Assembly: GCA_021324615.1 (NCBI GenBank)
Contig: JAJPIT010000044.1
Coordinates: forward strand, 1-50,820
Length of the DNA: 50,820 nt
From: Terriglobia bacterium
Lineage (GTDB): Bacteria > Acidobacteriota > Terriglobia > Bryobacterales > Bryobacteraceae
Reading direction: 5' to 3'
Part shown: piece by piece, positions 35,834 to 47,912 of the stretch
Layout of the letters: each line of letters opens with the position of its first letter
How positions within the stretch are numbered: the stretch's first letter is position 1
Translations under genes and position numbers: made by a program
The notes under the pieces: model-generated
Seen by the model: only the letters and a program-made list of their open reading frames with translations
Told to the model about the DNA's origin: nothing
Database searches by the model: none

Positions 35834-35863
35834 TTGCGCCGGCGCCCGCTGTTGTATTATTAT
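35834..35863 (+). promoter_or_regulatory. Probable promoter of the arginine operon
   Basis: TTGCGC (35834-35839), 18 bases, then TATTAT (35858-35863) fits a sigma70 promoter. The -10 lies inside the upstream ARG box, so ArgR binding would block polymerase directly. TATTAT also occurs at 35855-35860, so the exact -10 is uncertain. Confidence 0.5.
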
Positions 35864-35888
35864 TCATTTGACTGAATAAAAATTCAGC
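35851..35888 (+). promoter_or_regulatory. Pair of ARG boxes (ArgR operator)
   Basis: Two 14-base cores match the ArgR consensus TGAAT-wwww-ATTCA. The downstream core, TGAATAAAAATTCA (35873-35886), is a perfect match. The upstream core, TGTATTATTATTCA (35853-35866), has one mismatch. Taken as 18-base boxes they are 2 bases apart, on the same DNA face, as required for hexameric ArgR. The second box ends just before the GGAGG ribosome-binding site of argF, and argR is in the same operon, giving autoregulation by arginine. Confidence 0.9.
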
Positions 35889-35898
35889 GGAGGCAAAC

Positions 35899-36816
35899 GT
35901 GGCGGTCCCGCTTCAAAATCTTGTTCGAACCACAACCCGGCGCCTGGCCAGCGATCTCGACCTCGGCGCCGACGCGCTGGCCGGCATCCTCGATCTGGCG
36001 GCGCAAATCAAGCGCGCACCGTCCCGTTTCGCGGACCGGCTGAAGGGGCGCTGCCTCGCGCTGCTGTTCGAAAAACCGTCGCTGCGCACCCGCTTCACCT
36101 TCGAACTGGCGATCAAGCAGCTTGGCGGCGATAGCGTCGTCAGCGCCGGACCCGTCGCGGGCCGGGAGCCCGTCAAAGACGTCGCCCGCAATCTGGAGCG
36201 GTGGACCGACGGAATCGTCGCGCGCGTTTTTTCCCAGACGACCATCGACGAGCTGGCGGCCTGGAGCTGCGTGCCGGTGATCAATGCGCTGAGCGATAAA
36301 TTTCACCCCTGCCAGGCGCTGGCCGACGTGCTGACGCTGCGCGAGCATTTCGGCGACCTTGATGGATTGAAGCTGGCCTTCCTCGGCGACGGCAACAACG
36401 TCGCGCATTCGCTGATGCTGACCGCCTCGCGGCTGGGCGTTCACGTCGCGGTGGCCACCCCGCGCGGATATGAGCCGGACGCGGCCATCGCCGCCCGGGC
36501 GGAGGGTCCGGTGACGATCACCAACGATCCGGCCGAGGCCCTGGACGGCGCCCACGCGGTTTACACCGACGTCTGGGCGAGCATGGGCCAGGAGGACGAG
36601 GCGGCGGAAAGGATTCCCATATTCGCGCCTTTTCAGGTCAATGAAGATCTGTTCGCCCAGGCGCGCCCGGACGCGGTCTTCATGCACTGTCTGCCGGCCA
36701 AGCGCGGCCTGGAGGTAAGCGAGGCCGTGCTGGAGTCGCCGCGGTCCGTGGTCTTCGATCAGGCCGAAAACCGGCTGCACACGCAGAAAGCCCTGCTGGT
36801 GGCGCTGTTGGGATAG
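35899..36816 (+). CDS. argF: Ornithine carbamoyltransferase
   Basis: A 305-residue enzyme that makes citrulline from ornithine and carbamoyl phosphate. The carbamoyl-phosphate motif is FEKPSLRTR (S61-R65). HPCQ is at 136-139, the ornithine loop DVWASMG at 224-230, and HCLPA at 263-267. The SMG loop and HCLPA favour the ornithine enzyme over the acetylornithine or succinylornithine forms. It starts at GTG with GGAGG five bases upstream; an ARG-box pair lies immediately before. First gene of the argFGH-argR operon. Confidence 0.95.
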   Translation: MAVPLQNLVRTTTRRLASDLDLGADALAGILDLAAQIKRAPSRFADRLKGRCLALLFEKPSLRTRFTFELAIKQLGGDSVVSAGPVAGREPVKDVARNLERWTDGIVARVFSQTTIDELAAWSCVPVINALSDKFHPCQALADVLTLREHFGDLDGLKLAFLGDGNNVAHSLMLTASRLGVHVAVATPRGYEPDAAIAARAEGPVTITNDPAEALDGAHAVYTDVWASMGQEDEAAERIPIFAPFQVNEDLFAQARPDAVFMHCLPAKRGLEVSEAVLESPRSVVFDQAENRLHTQKALLVALLG

Positions 36817-36858
36817 CGCCTCGCGCGCATCGCCGCCGGCGTCGGACAATTGAGGAAT

Positions 36859-38076
36859 ATGGCAAAACCCAAGAAAGTCGCGCTCGCGTATTCCGGCGGG
36901 CTGGACACATCGATTATTATTCCGTGGCTCAAGGAAACCTACGGATGCGAGGTCGTCGCCGTGTGCGGCGATATCGGACAGGGCGGCGATGAGCTGGCCG
37001 GGCTGGAGGCGAAAGCGAAAAAGACCGGCGCATCGGAGGTCCACGTCGCCGATATGCGCGAGGAGTTCGTGCGCGACTATCTGTGGAAGCTGGTCCGCGC
37101 CGGCGGCGAGTATGAGCACAAATATCTGCTGGGCACCTCGATCGCGCGGCCGCTGCTGGCGAAAAAACAGGTGGAGGTCGCCCTCGCCGCCGGCTGCGAC
37201 GCGCTGGCGCACGGCTGCACCGGCAAGGGAAACGATCAGGTTCGCTTCGAGCTGACCTATAAAGCGCTGGCGCCCCATCTGCCGGTGATCGCGCCCTGGC
37301 GCGAATGGTCCATCGTCTCGCGCGAGGACGCCATCGAATACGCCGCGCGCCACAACGTGCCGGTCTCGCAGACCACGGCCAAGATTTACAGCCGGGACCG
37401 CAACATCTGGCACATTTCACACGAGGGCGGCGCGCTCGAAGATCCGGCCAACGCCGCTCCGGAAGACGTGTGGATGTTGACCAGGAGCGCCAAAGACGCG
37501 CCGAATACTCCGGCAACGGTAGCGATCGGATTCGAGCAGGGCGTTCCGGTTTCGGTCAATGGCAAGCAGTACATTTCGGCGGCGGCGCTGCTGGAAGAAC
37601 TGAACGCGATCGGCGGCGAGCACGGCATCGGCCGCATCGATCTGGTCGAAAACCGCTTCGTCGGGATGAAATCGCGCGGCTGCTATGAAACGCCCGGCGG
37701 CACGCTCATCATGGCCGCCCATCGCGAGCTGGAAGCGCTGACGCTCGATCGCAACATGGCGCACTACAAGCAAAAGCTCGCGCTCGATTACGCCGAGCTG
37801 GTCTACAACGGCCTGTGGTTCACGCCCTTGCGCGAATCGCTGGACGCGTTCTTCGCCGAGGCGAGCCGCCCGGTTACCGGCGAGGTCGCGCTGCGGCTAT
37901 ACAAAGGAACGCTGGAGCCGGTCAGCCGCAAATCGCCCTATTCGCTCTATTCGCTCAATATCGCGAGCTTCACCATGGGCGCGGAATACGATCAGAAGGA
38001 CGCGCGCGGGTTCATCAATTTGATCGGCTTGCCGATCCAGGTGCGGGCCTCGCTCGCCTCCAAGGCCAAGGCCTAG
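36859..38076 (+). CDS. argG: Argininosuccinate synthase
   Basis: A 405-residue enzyme of normal length that joins citrulline and aspartate using ATP. The N-type ATP pyrophosphatase loop is LAYSGGLDTS (9-18). Other family blocks include GCTGKGNDQVRFE and YETPGGTLI. The ATG at 36859 follows GAGG by two bases; a TTG at 36850 is open in frame but less likely. It lies 42 bases after argF. Confidence 0.97.
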   Translation: MAKPKKVALAYSGGLDTSIIIPWLKETYGCEVVAVCGDIGQGGDELAGLEAKAKKTGASEVHVADMREEFVRDYLWKLVRAGGEYEHKYLLGTSIARPLLAKKQVEVALAAGCDALAHGCTGKGNDQVRFELTYKALAPHLPVIAPWREWSIVSREDAIEYAARHNVPVSQTTAKIYSRDRNIWHISHEGGALEDPANAAPEDVWMLTRSAKDAPNTPATVAIGFEQGVPVSVNGKQYISAAALLEELNAIGGEHGIGRIDLVENRFVGMKSRGCYETPGGTLIMAAHRELEALTLDRNMAHYKQKLALDYAELVYNGLWFTPLRESLDAFFAEASRPVTGEVALRLYKGTLEPVSRKSPYSLYSLNIASFTMGAEYDQKDARGFINLIGLPIQVRASLASKAKA

Positions 38077-38104: not shown

Positions 38105-39484
38105 ATGAAATTATGGGGCGGGCGGTTCGAAGCAGGACCCTCCGAAGTATTTGAGCGGTTTTCCGCTTCGCTGCACTTCGACAAACGGCTGGCCGACGCC
38201 GATATCCGCGGCTCGCAGGCCTACGCGCGCGCGCTCGAACGCGCCGGAGTCCTGACGCCGGAGGAGCGCGCAACGGCGGTGGCCGCCTTCGAGGCGATGC
38301 GCGCCGAGGTCCGGTCGCCCGCCTTTTTCGAAGGCGCCGAAGACGAAGACATCCATACGCTGATCATTCGCAAACTGAAAGAGCGCGCCGGCGGGATCGC
38401 GGATAAAATTCATACCGGGCGCAGCCGCAACGATCAGGTGTCGCTCGATATCCGGTTGTGGCTGCGCGATGAGATCGACGCCTCGCGCGATTTGCTGCGC
38501 GGCCTGCTCGCGGCGCTGCTCGAAATGGCCAGGCGCGATTCCCAGGCGATCGTTCCCGGATACACCCATACGCGCCGCGCGCAGCCGGTTCTATGGCCTC
38601 ATTATCTGCTCGCCTATTTTGAGATGTTCGCGCGGGATCACCAGCGCCTGGGCGAAGCGCGGAACCGGGTCAACGTGCTGCCGCTCGGCAGCGGAGCGCT
38701 GGCCGGCTCGGCGTTCCCCTTCGATCGCGAGGCCATCGCGCGGGACCTGGGATTCGACGCCATCAGCAAAAATTCCATGGACGTTTCCGGCGATCGCGAC
38801 TTCGCGCTCGACTTTCTTCATGCCGCCGCGATGACAATGCTTCATCTGAGCCGCCTTGCCGAGGACTGGATCCTGTATTCGGGCGAGGAGTACGGCTGGC
38901 TGCAATTGAGCGATGGCGTCACCAGCGGATCCAGCATGATGCCCCAGAAGAAAAATCCCGATTCACTGGAGCTGATCCGCGGAAAATGCGGCGCGGTCTT
39001 CGGCGGCTACGCGGGGCTGTTCCTGCTGATGAAGGGTCTGCCGATGACTTACAATCGCGACATGCAGGAGGATAAGCCGCTTCTGTTTGAAGCCGCCGAT
39101 CAGCTTCGCGGATCGCTCGAAATGGCCCGCGTGGTGGTGGAGACCACCCGCCTGAACCCCGCCCCGCCGCTCGCCGCCCTGGAAGAGAGCTGGGCGGTGG
39201 CCACGGATCTGGCCGACGCGCTGGCCCGGAGCGGCGTGCCTTTCCATCAGGCGCACCAAATCGTCGGCCGGCTGGTGCGCGAAAGCCTGCGCGATTCGAA
39301 AAAGCCGGGCGACTGGACCGCGGAAGCGCTGGCGCGTTTCGACGCCGCGTTCACGCCCGAAATGGCGCGCTATCTGCGGCCCCAGGAGGGAATCCGCACC
39401 CGGGAAATCGCCGGCGGAACCGGACCCGCCGCGGTTGCCGCGGCGCTCGAAGAAGCCGCGCGGCGGCTGGAACGGATGCGATGA
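38105..39484 (+). CDS. argH: Argininosuccinate lyase
   Basis: A 459-residue member of the fumarase/aspartase superfamily that splits argininosuccinate to arginine and fumarate, the last step of arginine synthesis. The signature loop TSGSSMMPQKKNPD (273-286) contains the catalytic serine. H155 in GYTHTRRAQP is the general-acid/base region, and HTGRSRNDQV (103-112) is the first conserved block. It follows argG by 28 bases, and its stop overlaps the argR ATG (ATGA). Confidence 0.97.
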   Translation: MKLWGGRFEAGPSEVFERFSASLHFDKRLADADIRGSQAYARALERAGVLTPEERATAVAAFEAMRAEVRSPAFFEGAEDEDIHTLIIRKLKERAGGIADKIHTGRSRNDQVSLDIRLWLRDEIDASRDLLRGLLAALLEMARRDSQAIVPGYTHTRRAQPVLWPHYLLAYFEMFARDHQRLGEARNRVNVLPLGSGALAGSAFPFDREAIARDLGFDAISKNSMDVSGDRDFALDFLHAAAMTMLHLSRLAEDWILYSGEEYGWLQLSDGVTSGSSMMPQKKNPDSLELIRGKCGAVFGGYAGLFLLMKGLPMTYNRDMQEDKPLLFEAADQLRGSLEMARVVVETTRLNPAPPLAALEESWAVATDLADALARSGVPFHQAHQIVGRLVRESLRDSKKPGDWTAEALARFDAAFTPEMARYLRPQEGIRTREIAGGTGPAAVAAALEEAARRLERMR

Positions 39485-39915
39485 ACAAAACTTATCGCCA
39501 GGGCCAGATCCTCAAGCTGATCCGCTCCCGCCGCCTGCACACCCAGGATGAGCTGGCGCGGGCGCTGCGCTCCATCGGGATTCCGGCCACGCAGGTGACC
39601 CTCTCCCGCGATATCCGCGAGCTCGGCCTGATCAAAACCCCCGACGGCTACGCCGAAGCCGTTCCGGACTCGGCCGCTGCGCCGGAAGTGGAGCCGCTGG
39701 TGCGCGAATTTGTGCGGGATGTCCGGGCGGCGCAAAACCTGCTGGTGCTGCGCACCCCTCCGGGACATGCCAACGCCGTCGCCGTGGCCCTCGACAACGC
39801 GGAGTGGCCGGAGGTCACCGGAACCATCGCCGGAGACGACACCATCCTGATCATCGCCCCCGACGCAAAAACGGCCGAATCGCTGCGCCAAAAATTTTTA
39901 GAGATGCTCCAATGA
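39481..39915 (+). CDS. argR: Arginine repressor ArgR
   Basis: A 144-residue transcription factor. The winged HTH is at ~1-65, with TQVTLSRDIRELGL containing the conserved Ser-Arg (S42/R43). The C-terminal hexamerisation and arginine-binding core ends with GTIAGDDTILI (114-124), where D119/D120 contact L-arginine in known family members. It should bind the ARG boxes at 35851-35888 and so repress its own operon when arginine is plentiful. Both ends overlap neighbours as ATGA. Confidence 0.95.
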   Translation: MNKTYRQGQILKLIRSRRLHTQDELARALRSIGIPATQVTLSRDIRELGLIKTPDGYAEAVPDSAAAPEVEPLVREFVRDVRAAQNLLVLRTPPGHANAVAVALDNAEWPEVTGTIAGDDTILIIAPDAKTAESLRQKFLEMLQ

Positions 39916-41348
39916 CCGCGCGCTGGTCGAAACTGTTTATTCCGACCCTGCGCGAAGATCCGGCGGAGGCCAGAAACGCCGCGCACCGGCTGCTGGTGCG
40001 CGCCGCCTACATGCGCCGGCAGGATTATTTGTATCTGGGGCGGCGCGCGCTGCGCAAGATCGCGGCCCTGTTCCGCCAGGAGCTGGAGGCCGCCGGCGCG
40101 CAGGAGATGCTGTGGTCCTCGCCCGCCGGCGCCTGGGCCATCGCCGCGGAAATCCGCAGCTACAGGCAGCTCCCGCAGATCTGGTATCGCCTCGGCGGAG
40201 GCACGCTCGAATGCTGGAGCTTCGGCGAGGCAGAGGCGTCCTGCCGGGGCGCGGTGCGGCGCGCCGCCGGCCGCTGCGGGGTCGATTTCATCGCGGGACG
40301 AAGCGAGTTCATCGCGCTGTCCGGACACGGCGAGCCGGTGTTGTGCGGCGGGGAAGAAGCCGCGTCGCTGGACGCCGCCGTGAGCCTGCCGCGCCCGCCC
40401 GCCGCCCCCGATCCGGAAGGCGATCTCGCGCCGGAATTGTTCCACACGCCGGGACAAAAAACCATCGCCGATCTTTCCGCGTTCACCGGACTGCCGGAAT
40501 CGTCGCAGATGAAGAGCGTGGTGATGGTGGCCGACGGAAAACCGGTGCTGGCCATGCTGCGCGGCGATCATCAGCTCAGCGAAACCAAACTCCGCGAGGA
40601 ATTGAGCGCCTCCGAGCTGCGTCCGGCCTCGGCCGCGGAGATCCGCCAGTGGTTCGGAGCCGACGCGGGATCGCTCGGCCCAGTCGGAGTCACCCATCTG
40701 CCGGTGCTGGCCGACGAGGCTTTGCGCGGCCGCCGCAACATGATCTGCGGCGCCAACCGCAACGATTATCATTTGCGCCACGTCACCCCGGGCGAGGATT
40801 TTTTCCCCCTTTTCGCCGATTTGAGAATGGCCCAGGAAGGAGAAACCTCTCTGGACGGCGCGCCGCTGGTGCTCGCCCGCGGGATCCCGCTGGCGCGCTT
40901 CCGCCCGCTGCGGAAGCAACTGACGGTGTCCGGCGAAAGCGGCGGGCCATCGCCGGTGAACGTATCGGCCGTCCGCGTGTTTTTCGAGCAACTGCTGATC
41001 GCCGCCGCAGAACAGCGCCAGGACGCCGACGGCCTCGCTCTGGCGCCCTCGATCGCTCCGTTCGACGTCTTGATCACTCCCGTGGCCAACGATGAGGCGC
41101 AGCGCGGCGCCGCGCGGGAGCTGTGCGAATCGCTGTGCGCGGCCGGCCTCGACACCCTGCTCGACGACCGCGACGAGCGGCCCGGCGTCAAATTTAAAGA
41201 CGGCGACCTGATCGGGATTCCCTATCGCGTCACCATCGGCAAAAAGCTGGCGCAGGGCCTGGTCGAGATCCGCGATCGCCGCGCCCGAACATCGGAAGAC
41301 GTCGCGCTCGCCGAAGCGGTCCGGTTCCTTCAAGGCAAATTGAAATGA
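39912..41348 (+). CDS. Prolyl-tRNA synthetase paralogue lacking class II motifs 2 and 3
   Basis: A 478-residue protein, about 90 shorter than bacterial ProRS. The N-terminus (1-70; WSKLFIPTLREDPAEA, AGAQEML) aligns with ProRS motif 1. The blocks around GPTHEEV and motif 2 (FRDE...RPR...REF) are absent: the text goes from SYRQLPQIWYR (83-93) straight to a divergent segment, then GVDF and SEFIALS (131-137). The INS editing domain is intact (~175-290; FHTPGQKTIADL, K201, GANRNDYH). Motif 3 GIGVSR is replaced by VNVSAVR (349-355). The anticodon-binding domain is well kept (SIAPFDVLITP, DDRDERPGVKFKD). It cannot be expected to activate proline. An editing or regulatory role is inferred. Confidence 0.85.
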   Translation: MTARWSKLFIPTLREDPAEARNAAHRLLVRAAYMRRQDYLYLGRRALRKIAALFRQELEAAGAQEMLWSSPAGAWAIAAEIRSYRQLPQIWYRLGGGTLECWSFGEAEASCRGAVRRAAGRCGVDFIAGRSEFIALSGHGEPVLCGGEEAASLDAAVSLPRPPAAPDPEGDLAPELFHTPGQKTIADLSAFTGLPESSQMKSVVMVADGKPVLAMLRGDHQLSETKLREELSASELRPASAAEIRQWFGADAGSLGPVGVTHLPVLADEALRGRRNMICGANRNDYHLRHVTPGEDFFPLFADLRMAQEGETSLDGAPLVLARGIPLARFRPLRKQLTVSGESGGPSPVNVSAVRVFFEQLLIAAAEQRQDADGLALAPSIAPFDVLITPVANDEAQRGAARELCESLCAAGLDTLLDDRDERPGVKFKDGDLIGIPYRVTIGKKLAQGLVEIRDRRARTSEDVALAEAVRFLQGKLK

Positions 41349-42451
41349 CGGACTGGAACGCGATCCGCGCGGAGTTCCCCGCGCTCGAAAAATGGACTTA
41401 TCTCAACTCGGCCACCTTCGGCCAGGTGCCGCGGCGGGCCGTGGAAGCCTGCGCCGGACATTTCGCGCGCCGCGACGAGCAAGCCTGCTCGGATTTTCTG
41501 GACTGGTTCGACGACGCCGACCGGCTCCGCGGCTCGCTGGCGAAGCTGATTCACGCCAGCCCGGATGACATCGCCTTTGTGCGGAACACCGCGGCGGCGC
41601 TCGGCCTGCTGGTCAATGGAATCGACTGGCGCTCCGGCGATAACGTGGTGACGCTGGCCGGCGAATTTCCGAATTATCTCTATCTGCCGGCGCTGGTGGA
41701 GCGGCGGGGCGTCGAATTTCGCGAAGCCCCCTGGCCGGGGCTGTTGGACGCGGTCGACGGCCGCACGCGCCTGGTCGCCCTCAGCGAAGTGAACTACGCC
41801 AGCGGTTTCCGCCCGCCGCTGGCGGAGATTTCGCGATTTCTCCGTGAACGCGGCGTGATTTTTTTCGTCGATGGAACGCAAAGCGTCGGCGCGCTGCGCT
41901 TCGATGTTCAAATCACGGATCCCGATGCGCTCGCGGCGCACGGATATAAATGGATGTGCTCGCCGATGGGCGCCGGTTTTTTCTATATCGCGCCGCGGCT
42001 GCGAAAAAAACTGCCGCCCAGCGAGGCCGGCTGGCGCAGCCATCGCGCCTGGCGCCAGGTCGACGATCTGCACCACGGCCCGCCCGAGATGGTCGAAGCC
42101 GCGGAAAAATACGAAGCCGGAGGATTGCCGTTCGCGCTCTTATACGCAATGGAAGCGGCGGTGAATCTGATGCTCGAAATCGGCCTGGACCGGATCGAGC
42201 AACGCGTGCTGGAACTGGCCTGCTCGGCGCGCGAGCGTCTGCGCCATTTGGGCGCGGAGGTGAACGAGACCGGCTCGCAGATTGTTGCCGCGAAATTCCC
42301 AGGCATCGATCCCTCGCCGCTGGCGCGCGAGTTGAAGTCGCGCCGCATTCTGGTCGCCGCGCGCCACGGCTTCCTGCGTGTCTCGCCGCATTTTTATAAC
42401 AATGCGGACGATCTGGACCGCCTGGCGTCGGAGCTGCGCCGGCTGCTCTGA
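41345..42451 (+). CDS. Class V aminotransferase-fold PLP enzyme
   Basis: A 368-residue fold-type I enzyme of the class V/cysteine-desulfurase-like group. PLP lysine K202 sits in HGYKWM, and D176 in FVDGTQSVGAL contacts the pyridine nitrogen. It starts YLNSATFGQVPRRAV, like isopenicillin-N-epimerase-type members. The active-site cysteine loop of true cysteine desulfurases is not evident. It is not ArgD, which is class III. The ATG overlaps the preceding stop (ATGA), making it the last gene of the arginine operon. Substrate unknown. Confidence 0.87.
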   Translation: MTDWNAIRAEFPALEKWTYLNSATFGQVPRRAVEACAGHFARRDEQACSDFLDWFDDADRLRGSLAKLIHASPDDIAFVRNTAAALGLLVNGIDWRSGDNVVTLAGEFPNYLYLPALVERRGVEFREAPWPGLLDAVDGRTRLVALSEVNYASGFRPPLAEISRFLRERGVIFFVDGTQSVGALRFDVQITDPDALAAHGYKWMCSPMGAGFFYIAPRLRKKLPPSEAGWRSHRAWRQVDDLHHGPPEMVEAAEKYEAGGLPFALLYAMEAAVNLMLEIGLDRIEQRVLELACSARERLRHLGAEVNETGSQIVAAKFPGIDPSPLARELKSRRILVAARHGFLRVSPHFYNNADDLDRLASELRRLL

Positions 42452-44747: not shown

Positions 44748-44775
44748 TTGACAAAATCCCTTATTTTGATATTCT
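44748..44775 (+). promoter_or_regulatory. Sigma70-type promoter of the third receptor gene
   Basis: TTGACA (44748-44753), a 16-base spacer, then TATTCT (44770-44775). The -35 is a perfect match and the -10 has 4 of 6. The region is AT-rich against a GC-rich background. The leader to the ATG at 44862 would be about 80 bases. Confidence 0.75.
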
Positions 44776-44861
44776 ATTCAAAAGGTTTGTTGGATTTCCG
44801 GTCTAGGGTTTTGGGCCGGGAGAACAATTCCGCAAAGATTTATCCGAAAGGATTGGGGATT

Positions 44862-47800
44862 ATGAAAAAATACGCTTGGCTGCTGCTCGTGTGCGCGCTG
44901 TTGTGTGCGCTTCCGCGCCGGTCATTCGCTCAGTTGACCGCCACGGCGACGCTTCAGGGTACGGTGACCGATAAATCCGGGGGCGTGATTCCGGGAGCCG
45001 AAGTCAAGATTACCAACCGGGAAACCGGCGCGGTCCGCACCGACAAGACCGCCGGAAATGGCAGCTACGTGTTTAATCTGCTGCCAGCCGGCCACTACGA
45101 CGTGACCGTCACGATGCCCGGATTTGCCACCGGCGTTTACTCCAACGTCGAACTGTTCGTTTCCCGCACCACCACCGTCGACGCCACGCTTTCGCCCAGC
45201 CAGCAGACCCAGACGGTGACCGTGGAAGCGGCGGGCGCGGCGCTGGTCGATTTGCAGAAAACCGACGTCAGCCTGCCGATTACGCCGAGCGACGTCGAAA
45301 ATCTTCCGCTCAACGGCCGCGACTTCGTCAATATGGCGATTCTGGCGCCCGGCGCGCGGCCGGTGAACTCCTATGACCCGACCAAGGCCCGCATCGGCGT
45401 GTTCGCCACCAACGGCTCAGGGGGCCGCAACGTCAACGTCACGGTGAACGGCGTCGATGATCACGACAACACCGTGGGCGGCCCAGTGATGCAGCTTCCA
45501 CTGGAAGCGGTCCAGGAATTCAACATTTCCACCCAGCGCTTCTCCGCCGCCAACGGGCGCAGCGAGGGCGCGGCGGTGAACCTGATCACCAAGTCCGGCA
45601 CCAACCAGTTTCACGGCTCTTTGTTTTTCCAGGACCGCGATCAGGCCTTCGACACGCTGAACTACTTCGAGCAGACCGCGCATGGCGGCACCGGCCAGAA
45701 GGCGCCGTTCAGCCGGCAGCAGTTCGGCGGATCCATCGGCGGGCCGCTCAAGAAGGACAAAACGTTCCTGTTTTTCGCCATTGAGCGCTCCCGCGAGCAG
45801 ACCAGCATCAACACCAACCCCGCGGCTTACGCCGACGCTCAGGCGCTGACCAAAGTCAGCCTGCCGTACGGCATTCAAGTGGATCCGGTGCAGACCATCG
45901 CCACGCCTTATTACGACTGGCGCTATAATGGCCGGCTCGACCATGACTTGAACGACAAAAACCGCCTTTCGTTGAGCTACTCCAATCAGAACAACCGCGG
46001 GCTCAACGACCAGGCCTCCGGCAACAGCGACGGCTTCCAGACCAACTTCACCACCAATCAGCTCATCATCTCCAATGCGACGCTGAACTCGGTGATCTCG
46101 CCGACCATGGTGAACTCCTTCACGGCCGGCTATCAGTATTGGAACAATTTGATCGACGCCAACCAGTTCGTGCCCAATCTCTCCTTCCCGAACCTTTCGG
46201 CCGGAACCAATCCCAACGTGCCGCAGGAGAGTTATCAGGCCAAATGGCAGTTCAAGGACGATTACTCAATCAACCACGGGGCCCATTCGTTCAAATTCGG
46301 CGTCGATTATCTTTACGAGCCCAAGCTTGGCGGCTTCTTCGTCACCGATCCGACGCCAGCGATCAGCTTCTTCGACGATCCCACCAAGATTCTCTCCGAC
46401 CCGGCCGACTACCCGCAGGGCCTGGCGACTCCGGGCGCGGTGCAATCGATTACCGTTCCCAACACCGGGAACCCTTATTTTGCCGAAAACGCCAAATCGA
46501 TCGGTTTGTACGTCCAGGACGACTGGAAGGCCACCCGCCGGCTGACGCTGAATATCGGGCTGCGGTGGGACAAGGACTACGATTTGAATGGCGGCGCGCA
46601 GCAGGCCACCAGCAAAACCTATCTGGAACTGAAGGCGATCGGCAGTCCCTATGCTTACCGGCTGCCGCAGAATGAGAATCGCGACTTCAGCCCGCGGTTT
46701 GGTCTGGCTTACGACCTGACCGGCTCCGGCAAGCACGTGCTCCGCGCCGGCTACGGCCTGTACTACGGCCAGACGTTCCAGAACATTCCGCTGTTCATGG
46801 AACAGCAGGCCAACGCCACGGTCTTTACCACCATCAACTACACCAGCCCTGGCCCGGGGAGCCCCTCAGCGGCGAAGCTGCCCAACGGAGAGCTGTTGTC
46901 GGCCTGGCGCTTCGGGATCGATCCGCTGCCGCCGATTCCTCCGGGAACCTCGCAGTTGCCCACCGGATCCACCGGCTTCATCATGGATCCGAACTACCGC
47001 AATCCTTACAGCGAGCAGTGGAACGCCGGCTATAGCTGGCAGGCGACCAGCGATTCGGTGATTGAGATCGAATATATTCACGAACTCGGCTTGCACGAGA
47101 ACGAGCGCATCATCATCAACCCGCAGATCAACGGCGTGCGGAACACCACCGCCGCCTTCCAGGCCGCCGGTCTGCCGGTGCTGGGCCAGATCCGCGACGC
47201 CATGTCCAACGGCCGCAGCCGCTACGACGGCATGAACGTCTCCTATCGCAAGCGGCTGACCCGCAACTTCTCGATCAACGCCGCCTACGTGCTCTCAAAA
47301 GCGCGGGCCTACAACGGGAGCGCGGCTTCCTACGCCAACTCCCCCACCGACGAGCTGAACTGGTTCGCCCCGCACGATTACGGCCCGACGCCATCCGATG
47401 AGCGGCACCGCATCACTTTGAGCGGCTTGTTCAACCTGCCGTTCGGCATCACCGTATCGCCCATCATGCAGTGGGCGACCGGGCGCCCCTACAACCCGAC
47501 CGAAGGCATCAGCGACGTCTACGGGTGGGGCGGCGGCAACGGCGCCACGCACGCGATCGTTCTCAACAGCGATCCAACCAATCTGACCGCGACCAAGTCC
47601 TACACCGCCGCGCAACTGGTGGCTTGCCTGAACGCCAATACCTGCCATCAACTGCCCTACAATTATCTCCGCGGCGAGGACTTTTTCCAGCTTGACGCTC
47701 GCTTCGGCAAGGTCTTCCGGCTGGGTGAAAAACCCAGGCTCGAGCTGTTCTTCCAGGCGTTCGACCTGACCAACCGGGCCAATTTCGGTTCTTCGTACCA

Positions 47801-47912
47801 GGCCAGCATCCGGGCGGCGAACTTCATGCATCCGACAAATTTCATCGCCGCCTCCGGGGTGATCGTGCCCAAGTCCTTCGCCGGGGAGTTCGGCGCGCGG
47901 TTCAGCTTCTAA
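44862..47912 (+). CDS. Oar-like TonB-dependent outer-membrane receptor (3)
   Basis: A 1016-residue protein. The signal peptide is 1-23 (ending RRSFA before Q24). A carboxypeptidase-regulatory-like domain follows (~32-110; LQGTVTDKSGGVIPGAEV), then a plug with NVNVTVNGVDDHDN, then a barrel ending GARFSF with terminal Phe. The plug contains NLPLNGRDFVNMAILAPG, a common Acidobacteriota receptor segment. The ATG at 44862 has AAGGATTGGGG upstream and starts the signal peptide; the longer frame back to 44748 includes the promoter and is not real. Flanked by its own promoter and terminator, so probably monocistronic. Ligand unknown. Confidence 0.92.
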   Translation: MKKYAWLLLVCALLCALPRRSFAQLTATATLQGTVTDKSGGVIPGAEVKITNRETGAVRTDKTAGNGSYVFNLLPAGHYDVTVTMPGFATGVYSNVELFVSRTTTVDATLSPSQQTQTVTVEAAGAALVDLQKTDVSLPITPSDVENLPLNGRDFVNMAILAPGARPVNSYDPTKARIGVFATNGSGGRNVNVTVNGVDDHDNTVGGPVMQLPLEAVQEFNISTQRFSAANGRSEGAAVNLITKSGTNQFHGSLFFQDRDQAFDTLNYFEQTAHGGTGQKAPFSRQQFGGSIGGPLKKDKTFLFFAIERSREQTSINTNPAAYADAQALTKVSLPYGIQVDPVQTIATPYYDWRYNGRLDHDLNDKNRLSLSYSNQNNRGLNDQASGNSDGFQTNFTTNQLIISNATLNSVISPTMVNSFTAGYQYWNNLIDANQFVPNLSFPNLSAGTNPNVPQESYQAKWQFKDDYSINHGAHSFKFGVDYLYEPKLGGFFVTDPTPAISFFDDPTKILSDPADYPQGLATPGAVQSITVPNTGNPYFAENAKSIGLYVQDDWKATRRLTLNIGLRWDKDYDLNGGAQQATSKTYLELKAIGSPYAYRLPQNENRDFSPRFGLAYDLTGSGKHVLRAGYGLYYGQTFQNIPLFMEQQANATVFTTINYTSPGPGSPSAAKLPNGELLSAWRFGIDPLPPIPPGTSQLPTGSTGFIMDPNYRNPYSEQWNAGYSWQATSDSVIEIEYIHELGLHENERIIINPQINGVRNTTAAFQAAGLPVLGQIRDAMSNGRSRYDGMNVSYRKRLTRNFSINAAYVLSKARAYNGSAASYANSPTDELNWFAPHDYGPTPSDERHRITLSGLFNLPFGITVSPIMQWATGRPYNPTEGISDVYGWGGGNGATHAIVLNSDPTNLTATKSYTAAQLVACLNANTCHQLPYNYLRGEDFFQLDARFGKVFRLGEKPRLELFFQAFDLTNRANFGSSYQASIRAANFMHPTNFIAASGVIVPKSFAGEFGARFSF

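Follow-up and report, generated by a model that had tools for sequence, protein, structure and literature searches.

Organization of the locus

The window, that is, the whole stretch of 50,820 nucleotides analysed here, carries on its forward strand a run of arginine genes. Three of them, which by sequence resemblance are probably argF (35899–36816), argG (36850–38076) and argH (38105–39484), are followed by argR (39481–39915), which scores 130.6 bits against TIGR01529 (cut-off 130.45). The next gene on the same strand, at 39912–41348, encodes a protein of 478 aa and is the subject of this work. Its start ATG overlaps the argR stop as ATGA, and its TGA in turn overlaps the ATG of a gene for a PLP-dependent class V aminotransferase or cysteine-desulfurase-like protein (41345–42451, also forward). 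The product of the latter is SufS/EgtE-like and stays under all family cut-offs. Further along, at 44748–47912, lies a long open reading frame of 1054 aa, presumably for an outer membrane protein of the TonB-dependent-receptor type.

Two ARG-box-like palindromes are located before argF, 4 kb upstream of the gene under study, at 35853–35866 (one mismatch) and 35873–35886 (no mismatch). In a scan with the ARG-box consensus 0.25 such sites were expected, and two of the shuffled sequences also reached two. The ATGA coupling behind argR and the pair of ARG boxes described in the first-pass annotation are both present in the sequence. A promoter scan gave no promoter-like site and five terminator-like ones, which does not exceed what shuffled sequences yield. 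The 478-aa gene follows argF-argG-argH-argR and is probably co-transcribed with them.

Domain architecture and loss of the catalytic motifs

Below, D denotes the motif-less form derived from ProRS-II and F the full-length bacterial-type ProRS (proS family II); G000 is the window's genome, and the other G-codes are members of a set of 200 genomes from the order. D of the window begins with a retained N-terminal ProRS segment with a motif-1-like helix (residues 1–68, 39912–40115). It continues with a degenerate remnant of the catalytic domain, from which the GPTHEE, motif 2 and TGSIGG blocks are lost (residues 69–165, 40116–40406), and with the INS (tRNA_edit) editing domain (residues 166–310, 40407–40841). 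A degenerate motif-3 region, in which GIG is replaced (residues 311–378, 40842–41045), leads to the anticodon-binding domain, ABD (residues 379–478, 41046–41345), where the block DDRDERPGVKFKD is kept.

In Pfam D matches tRNA_edit at 179–292 with 94.5 bits (cut-off 25.5) and HGTP_anticodon at 385–474 with 74 bits (cut-off 21), and the search gives no further domain at E<=1. The best NCBIfam model is the proline--tRNA ligase PRK09194 with 288.5 bits, under its cut-off of 558. Alignment to the E. coli enzyme shows that D has lost or replaced the GPTHEE block, motif 2, the TGSIGG block and motif 3, so it lacks what defines a functional proS family II enzyme, and amino-acid activation is not expected of it. 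Retained are the motif-1-like segment, the ABD block and the key positions of INS: K201, D268, G280-A281-N282 and H287 of D align with K279, D350, GAN and H369 of E. coli ProRS, of which we take D350 and H369 to have roles in editing. D thus has the PF04073 domain together with the catalytic lysine and the GAN, aspartate and histidine positions of the INS superfamily.

The AlphaFold model of D has a mean pLDDT of 93 and a pTM of 0.88, and its top match in the PDB is the ProRS of E. faecalis, 2j3l (E 4.5e-51, TM 0.77 by query length). Bacterial ProRS is therefore the nearest relative of D both among family models and among solved structures. The first-pass annotation had described a catalytically degenerate ProRS relative with both ends, INS and ABD kept and with motif 2, GPTHEE and motif 3 gone, and had proposed alignment and structure prediction as checks; all of this is borne out. 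In ordinary ProRS motif 1 and the N-terminal segment form the dimer interface, and since this segment is kept, D is possibly still a dimer.

The charging enzyme and tRNAs of the host

The host assembly is 3.94 Mb long and 99.3% complete, and a full ProRS-II (F) was not found in it. The sole complete ProRS found is a single archaeal-type enzyme of 480 aa, with 499.8 bits against TIGR00408 (proS family I; cut-off 437). The second, complete ProRS anticipated by the first-pass annotation is thus there, and it is of the archaeal type. No PF04073 match other than that in D was found in this assembly, which leaves the archaeal-type ProRS without an INS domain. The tRNA survey covered 30 of the 39 tRNA matches, read as loci, plus one within the window. 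The three tRNA(Pro) found (TGG, CGG and GGG) are of the ordinary bacterial type with C1:G72 and A73, and the two tRNA(Ala) read have G1:C72.

Distribution among relatives

The 200 genomes of the order were classed by searches for the D protein, for archaeal-type ProRS and for the catalytic part of F. F was found in 143 of them, D in 23 and archaeal-type ProRS in 74. The archaeal-type enzyme is present in 22 of the 23 D genomes versus 25 of the 143 F genomes (Fisher p 2e-13, kinship ignored). The one D genome where it was not detected, G127, is an assembly of 1360 contigs in which D itself is split over two. Left out of the D count as ambiguous were G173, G132 and G154, at contig ends, and G178, with a ProRS-II fragment cut at a contig end. 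Six genomes gave none of D, F and archaeal-type ProRS, and G178 gave only its fragment; together these seven show the measure of assembly gaps in the set.

D and F were clearly found together in 0 of the 200 genomes, with one unsure case, the INS domain alone having been searched for in all 143 F genomes. Among these, second INS matches of ProRS grade are limited to G137, G103 and the F genes split over contigs in G122 and G129; all others are weak (E above 1e-7). The match in G137 is a fragment in a 268-aa frame where a contig begins (C209:19-252, 68% identical), and it could belong to D, to a second F or to an assembly duplicate. The match in G103 belongs to a second, divergent proS of 617 aa with a catalytic part (C262; 54% identity in the catalytic stretch). 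A similar proS-like gene stands beside the normal ProRS-II in G191 (C295; 53%).

Two F genomes carry short stretches that resemble the archaeal-type enzyme: G109:C80:4789-4956 is 75% identical to it and contains a stop codon, and G166:C119:42809-42907 is 85% identical. Both genomes have a full bacterial-type ProRS, and the two stretches are perhaps decayed archaeal-type copies, that is, replacement in the opposite direction.

Archaeal-type ProRS without D or F occurs in 27 of the 200 genomes, three of them unsure at contig ends. Nine of the 27 have no PF04073 match at all, and seven of the nine are genus-mates of the window's genome (G003, G050, G058, G075, G099, G140 and G162), which apparently have no INS-type proofreading of tRNA(Pro) whatever. 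Editing of the D type is thus dispensable, as judged from these relatives. Among the D genomes themselves, 19 of 23 have additional PF04073 matches. In a look for ProXp-ala we sampled 20 free-standing INS-like proteins from 15 genomes, and they form clusters of 11 (YbaK-like), 7 and 2. Of the one member tested per cluster, the first passes the YbaK cut-off and the others match 3op6 and 2cx5; 5vxb is absent among their structure matches at E<=0.01.

Beyond the set, at least three of 80 loci from the named genome collection are D by length and motifs (L127, L172 and L181), all in Bryobacterales. Across 396 genomes of the phylum, among the matches listed, only the window's own starts near the N-terminus, match shape being a rough criterion. 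The first-pass annotation had proposed searching relatives for the motif-less form next to argR or argH. The form does recur, in the 23 genomes; its place beside the arg genes recurs, among 22 D loci, only in the close relative G093. An assembly deletion as the cause of the missing motifs is unlikely, since this second species (86% identical) shares the layout and D is present in 21 further assemblies, 23 in all.

D occupies the proS locus and seems to have arisen repeatedly

The PLP-dependent enzyme gene downstream of D in the window is a frequent downstream neighbour of proS in the family: it adjoins D in 15 of 23 D loci and F in 13 of 19 F loci. In one genus, G072 with D and G028 with F have common gene order on both sides, and neighbours are also shared between G120 and G148 (D) and G114 and G047 (F). 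By its locus in relatives, and by its nesting in the ProRS-II tree, D belongs to proS family II by descent.

The tree comprises E. coli together with 51 rows of F and 21 of D and was built after removal of the catalytic columns; the fragmentary G106 and G127 were left out. D rows are nested among F rows such that eight changes are needed, at least five of them forced by well-supported branches, in a tree whose bootstrap had not settled and some of whose D branches are long. There are four cases in which the F sisters of D also own an archaeal-type ProRS. G072 is sister to G028 (support 100/99), six D of genus g9 are sister to G044 and G053 (100/98), G056 is sister to G114, G133 and G199 (98/91), and G092 with G121 is sister to G171, weakly (83/53). 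The remaining D rows of genus g1 stand next to a group holding G028, G149 and G141. In G141, an F genome 82% complete and close to these rows, archaeal-type ProRS was not found. G134 is labelled in the tree as having the archaeal-type enzyme on the strength of a 58-residue fragment and is not so counted among the 200 genomes.

A single clade for 18 of the 21 D rows is rejected by the AU test (p 0.016), in which the tested group is defined by its trait and the long-branch rows G148, G095 and G068 were left out. Together with the nested positions, this disfavours a single origin of D. A pair test of D versus archaeal-type ProRS, with five pairs on well-supported branches, is without power, because the sister F genomes mostly have the archaeal-type enzyme too. 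The order F, then F with archaeal-type ProRS, then D with archaeal-type ProRS, then archaeal-type ProRS alone fits most of the tree data, its direction being our inference. As read from these sequences, F seems to have turned into D several times within the one family.

Conservation and selection

The positions K279, D350, H369 and G362 (E. coli numbering) are conserved in all 20 intact D and all 20 F compared. T109 and G447 are found in every F and in none of the intact D; R450, likewise present in every F, remains in nine of the 20 intact D. Pairs of D share a mean identity of 0.55 in INS and of 0.53 in ABD versus 0.31 in the alignable 40% of the catalytic stretch, and the INS of D averages 58% identity to that of full ProRS-II. 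ABD is present in all 20 intact D, its central block having single changes in a few (e.g., G006 and G148), and the motif-1 block is missing in three (G006, G068 and G148).

D lengths range from 391 to 533 aa by the chosen starts; G148 has 359 aa with an unsure start. The open frames of G120 and G095, of 542 and 546 aa, have a motif 2 region present in length and mutated, and from their sequences these two look like early stages of D. The most reduced forms include G078, G079, G087 and G100 of g9. The model of a small D of the g9 type (L172, 424 aa) has a mean pLDDT of 82, with INS and ABD well predicted and the remnant between them poorly.

Comparison of the window with G093 gives dN/dS values of 0.195 for the N-terminal segment, 0.242 for the catalytic remnant, 0.084 for INS, 0.287 for the motif-3 region and 0.115 for ABD. 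For the adjoining argF, argG, argH and argR it is 0.06–0.14, and for the PLP-enzyme gene 0.17. Finite values in six D pairs lie at 0.05–0.37, so D is under purifying selection, with synonymous distances high in several pairs and some values not computable. The contrast of INS and ABD with the rest is, beyond G000/G093, clear only for INS in G085/G101; in the small D of g9 it is absent and the N-terminal segment is slowest. In the catalytic stretch dN/dS is 0.075–0.079 in the two F pairs with finite values versus 0.13–0.28 in D.

These data bear on the alternative that D is a decaying pseudo-enzyme, a redundant proS in the course of being lost and at present functionless. The 27 genomes of the archaeal-type enzyme with neither D nor F, the faster evolution of the catalytic remnants than of INS in G000/G093 and the variable length of D agree with such decay. 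However, the 20 intact D have open frames and keep all checked INS residues through several independent losses, INS and ABD are constrained to a similar degree as the adjoining arg genes, and the dN/dS values of the six pairs point the same way. We consider mere decay quite improbable.

The arginine operon is incidental

The arg genes adjoin D in 2 of 22 D loci, namely in the window and in G093, while two other loci, in G152 and G106, lie at contig ends. G192, the sister of the window's genome and G093, has no arg genes beside D, and the arg operon thus looks like a recent neighbour in one lineage. The role tied to arginine that the first-pass annotation had offered is therefore not supported, and an arginine-specific role as the general function of D is rejected. 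The expression of D in the window may follow arginine supply by accident of place; for D as such the operon is incidental.

A related possibility is that D is a tRNA(Pro)-binding regulator, with INS as a sensor of charged tRNA, or a HisZ-like enzyme partner in arginine or proline metabolism. Such a role would be in keeping with the locus, in which argH, argR and D overlap downstream of argF and argG and a pair of ARG boxes stands in front. Yet a HisZ-like partner is recognized by a conserved operon with its pathway, and outside these two loci D sits in the proS locus; moreover, a sensor does not need the complete set of hydrolytic residues, all of which D keeps. We regard this role as very improbable.

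Proposed function and mechanism

Taking motif loss, retention of INS and ABD and the distribution together, we suggest that D is probably a former bacterial-type ProRS that, once charging had passed to an archaeal-type ProRS, became a factor editing Ala-tRNA(Pro) in trans. Of the candidate roles listed in the first-pass annotation, trans-editing is the one that the evidence favours. The catalytic activity and substrate of D and the order of events are deduced here from sequence comparison.

According to PMC3973320 and PMC11295145, the INS of E. coli ProRS has no intrinsic recognition of tRNA(Pro), and editing depends on ABD and on G35/G36; the K279A variant is editing-defective (PMC3973320). 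The same source gives 34% of bacteria as having a ProRS without a functional editing domain, with many relying on ProXp-ala; in the present family the old synthetase would take that place. PMC3973320 also poses as an open question how anticodon binding by ABD controls hydrolysis in INS about 70 A away.

We propose the following scheme. The archaeal-type ProRS would do the charging and, having no editing domain, can be expected to let some Ala-tRNA(Pro) escape. D would grip the anticodon loop of tRNA(Pro) with its retained ABD, so that the acceptor end reaches the retained INS site and the wrongly attached alanine is hydrolysed there in trans. ABD would have been kept with INS because INS cannot by itself tell tRNA(Pro) from other tRNAs. 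As for the aminoacylation site of the resident proS, it was no longer needed and would have been lost in place several times independently.

A variant of this scheme is that D edits in trans some other substrate (e.g., Cys-, Ser- or aminobutyryl-tRNA, or several tRNAs) or acts only in complex with the archaeal-type ProRS. Amino-acid choice differs among INS-like families, as PMC11295145 describes, YbaK works in complex with ProRS (PMC6344894), and most D retain the N-terminal segment. Against another substrate stand the INS of D itself, which is the orthologous ProRS INS at the identity given above, and the retained ABD, which selects tRNA(Pro). Such a variant seems to us unlikely, and we keep Ala-tRNA(Pro) as the proposed substrate.

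Among the open-licence literature matches listed we found no paper on a ProRS reduced to INS and ABD. We lean towards regarding D as a new class of trans-editing factor, in which a whole synthetase shed its aminoacylation site and kept INS and ABD, with at least five independent origins in one family. If this is true, proofreading outlives its synthetase: the charging enzyme is replaced, and the editing half is kept by selection together with the tRNA-reading domain. Within the INS superfamily D would be the first protein of several domains, guided by the anticodon, that has work in trans as its sole job, and its family would hold a replicated natural record of synthetase replacement with proofreading retained. 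With independent conversions, dual-enzyme relatives and complete losers in one family, it becomes possible to test directly in which order the events took place and how far Ala-tRNA(Pro) editing is needed. D would also offer a natural enzyme for the question of ABD-to-INS control, without a working aminoacylation site in the way. Genes of the D type may well be annotated as proline--tRNA ligase.

Comparison with known systems

In bacterial ProRS, for example that of E. coli or of E. faecalis (2j3l), INS edits in cis. This enzyme is homologous to D along its length, provides the best fold match and occupies the same locus in relatives. D keeps its INS and ABD and, unlike it, has lost GPTHEE, motif 2, TGSIGG and motif 3.

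HisZ and EpmA are synthetase paralogues with new roles that keep or re-use the synthetase core. D is, like them, a synthetase paralogue without the original reaction, but it discards the core and keeps the editing and anticodon domains.

In reaction the nearest system is ProXp-ala, since the proposed deacylation of Ala-tRNA(Pro) would likewise make up for the cis-editing that an INS-less ProRS lacks. However, ProXp-ala is a single-domain protein that reads acceptor-stem bases (PMC3973320 and PMC11295145), whereas D, a direct descendant of ProRS, combines INS with ABD and remnants of the synthetase.

Duplicated ThrRS, T1 and T2, are known from a cyanobacterium. There, too, one copy is a trans-editing factor for the other; T1, unlike D with its lost motifs, aminoacylates in the zinc-bound state (both points from PMC4787780).

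In layout D agrees with ThrRS-ed, which works beside a separate charging enzyme without editing: editing and anticodon domains are present, the core is gone and another enzyme does the charging. The likeness is one of layout only, as ThrRS-ed belongs to a different synthetase family with a different editing domain from that of ProRS. The best models of D are those of ProRS and not of ThrRS, and the 11 families listed for it at E<=1 do not include PRK14938 (Ser-tRNA(Thr) hydrolase). ThrRS-ed is archaeal, while D is bacterial, stands beside an archaeal-type synthetase and has seemingly arisen repeatedly. With its editing domain joined to an anticodon-binding domain, as given in PMC11295145, ThrRS-ed of Sulfolobus is the nearest analogue of D.
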